From the NCBI RefSeq assembly GCF_019059575.1, contig NW_024881669.1, positions 744,001 through 808,000 on the forward strand: DNA of 64,000 nucleotides, written 5' to 3'. Below the pieces are notes generated by a model. That model was not told the origin of the DNA. It worked only from the letters and a program-made list of their open reading frames with translations, and made no database searches. How positions within the stretch are numbered: the first letter of the stretch is position 1; every line of letters begins with the position of its first letter. The translations under genes and the position numbers were made by a program. This DNA is from Amphibalanus amphitrite (taxonomy: Eukaryota; Arthropoda; Thecostraca; Balanomorpha; Balanidae). Shown here piece after piece: positions 29,957-32,900 of the stretch.

Positions 29957-32900
29957 ATGGCTCAGCAGGGCACCCCGCGCACGGGCGTGCCGCACGCCCA
30001 CAACAGCATGGTGGAGCGACTGCTGGTGGCCGGCACGTCGGCCTGCATCGCAGACGCCATGACGTTCCCGCTGGACACGGCCAAAGTCAGACTGCAGGTC
30101 AGTGAGACTGGGGACACAGACTGCAGGTCAGTGGGGACACAGACTGCAGGTCAGTGGGGACACAGACTGCAGGTCAGTGGGGACACAGACTGTAGGTCAG
30201 TGGGGACTAGGGACACAGACTGCAGGTCAGTGGGGGCACAGACTGCAGGTCAGTGGGGACACAGACCGCAGGTCAGTGAGACTGCGGACACAGACCGCAG
30301 GTCAGTGAGACTGGGGACACAGACTGCAGGTCAGTGAGACTGGGGGCACAGACTCCAGGTTAGTGGGGACACAGACTGTAGGTCAGTGCGGACACGGCCA
30401 AAGTCAGACTGCAAGTCAGTGGCTTCCCGATGAAAGTCGGGCCTGTCCGATAGGACCACGAACCTTAGGTCACAGTGCGAGATCAGACGATCAGTTACAT
30501 TGAAGAGAAGGGCGCGATCTGTTTTTGTTTTGTCTGTAACACGCCAGGGCTATGGTGACATGTCCGTTGCATTTCACATAATTCTTCCTCTGCTGCTCGA
30601 CGGGCTAATTTTGTGCATCACTACTGAATAGAGATGCACCAAGTTTGCAATTTCATTACCCGCCCCGCCCCGCAGCTACCCCTTGCCCAACCACAACTAC
30701 CCGCAAGCTGATTTTGGCTGAGCCGAACCCGCAAAAAACCCGCAATTTTAAAAACCTGCCTTTGCAAGGAAAAAATACAGCTGGGTCAATGCTAGAGCTA
30801 TATAAACCTTACTTGCTTCATTGTTGTGCAGAAAAAGACAGCCAAACAAATAGTAAGGACTTGAAATCACTGGCGGTCCCAGGGGGGGGGCCACGGGGGC
30901 CATGGCCCCCCCTTTGGTGCTGAAAGGTGGGGCCATACTATCTTTTGGCCCCACCTTTCAGATCGAACAAAAGTCCTAGAAAAGCTTTTCGTATGTTTCA
31001 TTTTCTTTCTTGCGCCATCAAAGGACGTAAATTTCACTCATGAGTGGGCTCAGTTTCGCATTCTGTCAATTTGGTGGTCAGCGTCGCTGGCACCGGCTCA
31101 CGAGTATGGCCGGATCTTATATGGAATATCAGCGTGGGTTTACTTGAGGCTCTCGTAGGCCCAGCAATGGCTGGCATGAGACCCTCTTCGGCAGTGGTGG
31201 GTGGGCCCTGCTAAAGGAGATTGGCTCTAAGACATAAAGTAAGACCTCATGGGTTGGTGCTGTGCACCTCAGAAGCCCGGTGGTGACGCCGCATGCCGGC
31301 TTGGTTTCTTAAGGATTAGCGTGGGAACTCCGGGGCCTGCATAGAGTTTGCATGAGCTAGTATGTAATCTCAGAGGCATGTGTGTAATGTGTACACAGTG
31401 GCGGTCGCGGGGGGGGGGGGGGGCATCAGGGCCATGCCCCCCCCCCCAAAGGTCAATAAAGGGGGCCATCATATCATTTGCCCCCCCCCCCCCCTCAAAC
31501 AACCAATGGGCCCCCATATAGGTGTATGGGGCCCTGGCAATTATTCGATCGTCACGAGGCTCAAAAAACCCACGCCCAGCTATTAATAATTAATATAGCT
31601 CCCACACCGGTCTTTGAGCGTCCTACACTGACCTCTGAGGGAACTTCAGTGGCGGTCAAGTGCCCACGTTGACCGCTAAGAGCCTACATCAACCTCTGAG
31701 ACCCCACATCTGGCCTATGAGGGCCCCTAACCGGCCTCAGGGGTCCCAACCGGCGTCTGAGGGTCTCACACCGGTCTCTGGTGGCCTTATTTCTGTCTGT
31801 GGTGTCCCAAGACGAACCTTAAGGTGCCAATGAGGGCCCCGCACTGGCTGCTGAAGACCCGATGCCGGCCTCTAAGGGCCTGCATTGGCATTTGAGGAGG
31901 GCCCATCTTGGCCTTTGAGGGCCCTCTGCTGGCCTCTGGGGTCCAACGACGGCTCATGCCGGTCTTTTAGGGCCCCACGCTGACCTCTGAGGGCCCATGT
32001 TGGCCTGTAATAACCCACATTAGCCTCTGAGAGCCCAACTCGGTCACTGATTGTCTCAAACTACTGGCCTTTGTAGTTTGCAGGCCCTGTACTGGTCTCT
32101 GAGGGCCCTAAACTGGCCTCTACGTGAAAACATACATGGGTGGGTTTCTGAAGATCAGAGGGCTCACGCAGTCTCCGGCACAGCCTTACGTTGGTCCTGA
32201 TCGAGATTACTTTGCGTCCTGATGGTCCGGCGCAGATTCCCTCATATTTCGACATCGGGACCCCATGAGCCGGTGTGGGTCCTGGGGCTGGCAGAGACTG
32301 ATGAAGTCCTTAGGGCTCAGGGCCAGTCTTTTTAGCAGTAAGACTAGGCAGGTTGAGTGAGCCCCAATAGAGCCGCTGCGAAGCCCCGCAGGAGTCGCGC
32401 GCGGCCCTCAGATGCCAATTTTAAAAGCTCGGAACCTGTGGGGGGTCTCCAGAGGTCGGTGTACCTACTCTCTCCCGCCGCCACACAGCTAGGTATATTA
32501 CCTATATGGGTAAATGTCATAGTCTGAAAATGCTCTCTGGGTTTCACATGCCTGTTCAAAGCAAGAGGTATCTGTACTTTTCCGAATTGTTTTATAGTGG
32601 TAACTGGTCATGAATCCGCGTGCCTGACCTTCCAGTATACCTATGCTACACCGATCCGTCGTCATGGTGCAGTGGGCCGACCGGTGGAAGCACCGTGGGA
32701 CGGGAAATGGAACTGGTGATTTTGCCTTAAATTGAGCTTAAAAATTTCACGCAAGAATCAGATGGATGAAGCATAAGTAATGCCAACTGCGCGGCACCTC
32801 GTGGACGTAAAAAATTGGCCGATCACCCCCCCCCCTTCCGGTGACGTATAAATGTTATGTCCCGCGAGTGTGACTTTGGCCCCCCCTTTTGCTAGCGGCT

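Follow-up and report, generated by a model that had tools for sequence, protein, structure and literature searches.

Minisatellites that span exon-intron boundaries, termed mirages, have been described in amphioxus in Adh3, BflGb6 and BflGb9, with units of 10-72 bp in Adh3 and 150-160 bp in the globin genes, as stated in the sections of the report that characterize them (PMC3087553). According to the same sections, the boundaries of a mirage cluster are excluded from homogenization, BflGb6 haplotypes carry 6 and 3 mirage units, Adh3 is somatically unstable, and the copies could serve as cryptic splice sites and have been proposed as seeds of new introns (PMC3087553). Moreover, the Adh3 data and globin RT-PCR presented there suggest that regular splicing is undisturbed by mirages (PMC3087553). 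In the passages of a second report that deal with such repeats, the Adh and TnC mirages are said to duplicate splice sites without aberrant mRNAs, and the repeat number of the PGBD5 mirage differs between two versions of the genome sequence (PMC3902484).

Within the window, the whole 64,000-nucleotide stretch of DNA that was analyzed, the donor edge of the first coding exon of an uncoupling-protein (UCP) gene is followed by an array of this kind, which is already known from lancelets and of which the UCP array is a further case. Four structural features of mirages are found: the units span the exon-intron boundary, they include exon sequence together with the AG/GT signals, their spacings of 23-33 nt fall within the described unit sizes (10-72 bp in Adh3), and in this window, as in amphioxus, 5' and 3' exon edges are both affected. 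In addition, the boundary unit of the UCP array appears to have been left out of homogenization, as in the amphioxus clusters. The differences from amphioxus lie in the combination of 12 extra copies, spacings of 23-33 nt and an internally shortened unit.

A human minisatellite with multiple splice donor sites, belonging to the gene 6-16/IFI6/G1P3, is reportedly the subject, by its title, of a 1995 paper. The UCP array likewise carries splice donors; however, the human copies, again by that title, provide donors in a transcript, whereas the UCP array is known from DNA. In human genes, novel introns may arise from variable tandem repeats located at exon-intron boundaries, and an alternative transcript is supported for 66% of these intron modifications in the part of the study that reports them (PMC2812944). 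In the Rogers model, as cited in PMC3087553 where intron origin is discussed, introns are gained by tandem duplication at AG/GT proto-splice sites. The duplicated stretch at the UCP edge does hold AG/GT (a slash marks the junction throughout), but the copies lie inside the intron, at one edge, and the exon 2 acceptor is without a local copy. A gain of intron 1 by tandem duplication is not supported, as no local copy of acceptor 39962 was found within 1 kb upstream (score 7.0, p ~0.9).

The UCP gene itself is intact, its 8 coding exons, all with AG acceptors and GT donors, lying on the + strand and encoding 326 aa. Its product gives a mitochondrial-carrier match in Pfam (E 1e-71) and aligns to UCP2 across residues 20-319 (E 2.7e-103), and with the UCP2 and UCP1 matches the identification of the gene as UCP in the initial annotation holds. 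The exon 1 codon CAG continues in frame into exon 2 at 39962 (VRLQ/VQGE), which shows donor 30098 to be the authentic edge of exon 1, as had been claimed. Vertebrate UCP1-3 have 6 coding exons, compared with 8 in the present gene. A lamprey was weighed as a candidate host; in Reissner lamprey, UCP1 has 316 aa and UCP2 318 aa, as given in the portion of the source that covers these proteins (PMC8281276), compared with the 326 aa found here. A further repeat is seen within UCP intron 1 at 34720-35690, where a (GA)n run of ~140 nt is followed by a very G+C-rich GGCCCGGGCCCCCGGGTGGATGG-like array of ~33 copies.

Table 1. Features of the UCP gene and of the neighboring ankyrin gene, with positions in the window
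Feature	Position	Strand	Remarks
UCP coding exon 1	29957..30097	+	phase 0; matches UCP2 and UCP1; joins exon 2 in frame
Authentic donor GTCAGT of UCP intron 1 (9864 nt)	30098..30103	+	in-frame exon 1/exon 2 join
Exon-edge array	30073..30421	+	real edge and 12 junction copies; spacings 23-33 nt
Eleven interior short units	30111..30388	+	GGGACACAGACTGCAG/GTCAGTG type, some then GAGACTG
Outermost unit	30390..30421	+	long exon end; 31/32 identical to real edge
UCP exon 2	39962..40098	+	acceptor edge without local copy
UCP stop-codon region CACGAACAGTAGGTC	43283..43547	+	exact three times: 43283, 43402, 43533
Ankyrin-gene exon G donor edge	48690..48830	-	edge 48802; one copy ~99 nt further on
Ankyrin-gene exon G acceptor edge	48890..48975	-	edge 48901; one short copy, score 15.0, weakest of the six
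Ankyrin exon E acceptor-edge array	54965..55541	-	real edge 54997; six near-exact copies, one degenerate
Ankyrin exon D donor edge	56656..56800	-	edge 56782; copies at 56730 and 56656
Ankyrin exon D acceptor edge	56986..57070	-	edge 56986; one copy at 57068

Base composition differs from that of cephalochordates. The G+C content is 0.512 in the window (0.506 without the two densest arrays) and 0.623 in the UCP coding sequence (GC3 0.85), values that represent one window and one gene, whereas cephalochordate genomes have ~40-42% and lancelet coding sequences a mean of 53.0%, according to the part of the source on composition (PMC9956151). Because the window departs in this way from ~40-42%, the host may not be a lancelet, although a lancelet would fit the mirages. 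A barnacle host was a guess prompted by G+C values.

Immediately beyond the authentic donor come 12 repeats of the junction, reaching as far as 30421, with GT at 30127, 30150, 30173, 30196, 30226, 30249, 30272, 30301, 30330, 30359, 30382 and 30415, that is, at offsets of 29, 52, 75, 98, 128, 151, 174, 203, 232, 261, 284 and 317 nt from 30098. The sequence AGGTCAGTG occurs exactly 11 times on the + strand of the window, all inside 30096-30388, one occurrence being the real donor and 10 lying after it; the earlier estimates of about 12 junction repeats, around ten of them exact, are thus borne out. Exact CTGCAGGTCAGTG is present in 7 junctions, the real one included, and the remaining 6 junctions carry at least one base change. 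When up to one mismatch was allowed, CAGGTCAGTG gave 30 matches on both strands of the window, 13 of which are the real donor and its 12 array copies, against a chance expectation of 4.08 (sd 2.20) and a maximum of 11 in 100 shuffles. Splice signals are retained throughout much of the array, with GT in all 12 copies, AG/GT in 11 and the full CAG/GTCAGT in 8.

The interior units consist of a shortened exon end of ~16 nt and an intron start of 7-14 nt. A spacing of 29 nt results where a GAGACTG-type sequence follows, as it does in units 7, 8 and 9 and at the real edge; unit 4 has a spacing of 30 nt and unit 11 one of 33 nt. The outermost copy comprises 25 nt of exon end and 7 nt of intron start and differs from the real edge by one change, at the last exon base; its local score is 29.5, whereas the best of 300 resampled sequences scored 14.0. 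Ten additional exon bases (GGCCAAAGTC) are present in the real edge and in the outermost unit, and the short unit looks like the exon edge minus these 10 nt. Because the outermost unit keeps the long exon end, the sequence supports an origin of the array by growth from the UCP exon 1 edge, as was proposed from the greater length of exon sequence in the last repeat.

The consequences of using the later donors can be predicted from their offsets. It had been stated that such use would insert multiples of 23 or 29 nt and would usually shift the frame. The second part stands, as a frame shift is predicted for 9 of the 12 later donors; as to the first, spacings of 23 and 29 nt occur together with others of 30 and 33 nt, and the offsets are sums of these four spacings and not strict multiples of 23 or 29. 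The reading frame that begins at the ATG continues into the array without a stop codon as far as 30335-30337, where one occurs. Two of the later donors, at +75 and +174, are in frame and open and would give a full-length product with 25 or 58 extra residues, while the donor at +261 is in frame but is followed by a stop inside the array. Eight later donors share the 9-mer of the real donor, which is therefore found at 9 of the 13 sites when the real donor is counted, and no score from nine bases can separate these donors from the real one; the position weights used for donor strength were approximate frequencies, and their sole purpose was to show that equal 9-mers receive equal scores. We infer that identical donors must be told apart by their surroundings, for instance by how far they lie from the exon body, by enhancers or by RNA structure. 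The predicted RNA fold of 29957-30440 has a z of -2.32, with 1 of 100 shuffles equally good, although repeat-to-repeat pairing is to be expected anyway.

Copied edges are found elsewhere in the window as well. A search for local copies, extending 1 kb into the adjoining intron, was made at 27 splice edges of UCP and the neighboring ankyrin gene on the - strand, 14 of them donors and 13 acceptors, the null being 300 first-order resamples rather than exact shuffles. The UCP exon 7 donor was placed at 42919 in this test, its true position being 42918, and scored 8.0, with no match. A local copy was detected at 6 of the 27 edges, each with a p of 0.003, the floor of the test; the remaining 21 did not reach this level within the same 1 kb. 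The six comprise 3 of the 14 donors (UCP exon 1 and exons D and G of the ankyrin gene) and 3 of the 13 acceptors (exons D, E and G of the ankyrin gene); exons D and E were recognized as ankyrin by Pfam, and the remaining exons were attributed to this gene by reading the translation. At the acceptor of exon E, the near-exact copies are 64-70 nt apart, and CTGCAG/CTGGGTCGG is present in 5 of the 7 near-exact edges, the real one included. In addition, the coding end of UCP has been copied into its 3' flank, the three exact occurrences of CACGAACAGTAGGTC lying 119 and 131 nt apart. Since copying is seen at donors, at acceptors and at the UCP coding end, and in two genes, neither UCP nor donors are special.

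The link of copying to exon edges is weak. On a grid of 773 probes over the window, a downstream copy at a score of at least 15 was found for 57 probes and an upstream copy likewise for 57, and the window is therefore repeat-rich in general. Compared with 57/773, the 6/27 edges with a copy represent a threefold excess (p 0.015), a figure to be read with a score threshold of 15 that was chosen after the results had been seen and a grid that includes the arrays themselves. No edge excess was found for the arrays of Tandem Repeats Finder (TRF), which when merged form 25 places covering 6.6% of the window and which overlap 2 of the 27 edges (p 0.54; 42 of the 48 TRF rows were used, the other 6 being nested inside those). 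Both enrichment p values are rough, as the two edges of one exon are not independent. The simplest view is that the genome is rich in repeats and that, where a duplication happens to take in an exon edge, it survives in the intron.

Other repeats and elements in the window include a 272-nt tandem repeat in three copies at 6561-7384 (96% matching) and a similar loose repeat of 20-21 nt, CCTCTGAGGGCCC-like, at both 31693-32037 and 50055-50862, ~18 kb apart. LTR-retrotransposon-like open reading frames lie at 8388-11967 on the - strand; the one at 10414-11967 has Pfam matches to reverse transcriptase, zinc knuckle and aspartyl protease, and that at 8388-9278 has no Pfam match. Visual inspection had suggested a death domain at 46796-47335, which was dropped because it has no Pfam match.

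Taken as a mirage minisatellite, the UCP array would be a product of neutral tandem amplification, with donor 30098 mostly used and no regulatory role needed, and we place the probability of this reading at about 0.8. Counting against it are the weak enrichment at exon edges and a G+C content unlike that of the lineage in which mirages are described. A stretch running from the end of exon 1 into the beginning of intron 1 would have been tandemly duplicated, after which one copy would have lost 10 nt of its exon part, giving a 29-nt unit, and then 6 nt of its intron part, giving the 23-nt unit, this being the probable order of the losses. Unequal exchange or slippage may have carried the short unit across the interior of the array without reaching the ends, and copies would persist only outside the coding exon, as most would break the frame inside it. 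The authentic donor, which lies next to the whole exon, would be mostly used and the later copies would be minor at most, to judge from the published cases. By analogy with those cases, variation of array length between individuals is likely.

Some leaky use of the later donors is plausible, since they share the 9-mer of the real donor. A reading in which the later donors account, as unregulated noise, for a share of transcripts ranging from a few per cent to many, the in-frame products with +25 and +58 residues among them, is unlikely. It is favored by the equal 9-mers and the open frame, by the human minisatellite that reportedly bears multiple donor sites and by the alternative transcripts described for human exon-boundary repeats in the relevant part of that study (PMC2812944), but the accounts of other mirages report undisturbed splicing (PMC3087553, PMC3902484).

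Unsupported, and slightly less credible still, is the proposal of the initial annotation that the later donors could act as decoys and tune UCP output, a reading under which their use would be regulated, the resulting mRNA mostly frame-shifted and the dose set by repeat number. The identical donor 9-mer in 8 of 12 copies and the frame shift in 9 of 12 would suit such a function; however, donor and acceptor edges of the ankyrin gene and the UCP stop region are copied alike, and earlier mirages are described in the sections cited as leaving splicing undisturbed (PMC3087553, PMC3902484). Moreover, no extra conservation of the donor motif was seen among the 11 interior units (real edge and outermost unit left out), 3 of 99 cells being off consensus in the donor 9-mer against 6 of 154 elsewhere in the unit, a comparison of low power (Fisher p 1.0).

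That the array was inflated or invented by the assembler is very improbable. Minisatellites are often misassembled, as is noted for BflGb6 where that locus is described (PMC3087553). The units here differ from each other and end in a distinct long unit, unlike a simple duplication error. Clusters of U1 snRNP sites near the start of a gene can help transcription and protect an intron from early poly(A) cleavage. A run of 13 donor-like sites over 318 nt adjoining the 9864-nt intron would fit an aid to transcription or a guard of the 9.9-kb intron 1, but the donor motif is not kept above the rest of the unit and the acceptor arrays of the neighboring ankyrin gene cannot act in this way, which leaves this the most remote of the readings.

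Returning to the mirage reading, the UCP array offers a clean natural test of how the spliceosome chooses among donors with identical nine bases. It is quite unlikely that the host is a non-lancelet with common mirage edges in which all 13 UCP donors are really used, repeat number setting the frame-shifted share, with in-frame isoforms and with differences between individuals and between cells. If true, the 25 or 58 residues added in the in-frame isoforms would follow the first carrier motif. Were the host an animal other than a lancelet, mirages would be more widespread than described in the literature cited here. Some evolutionary interest also attaches to the raw material that such arrays may supply for new introns or unstable alleles.
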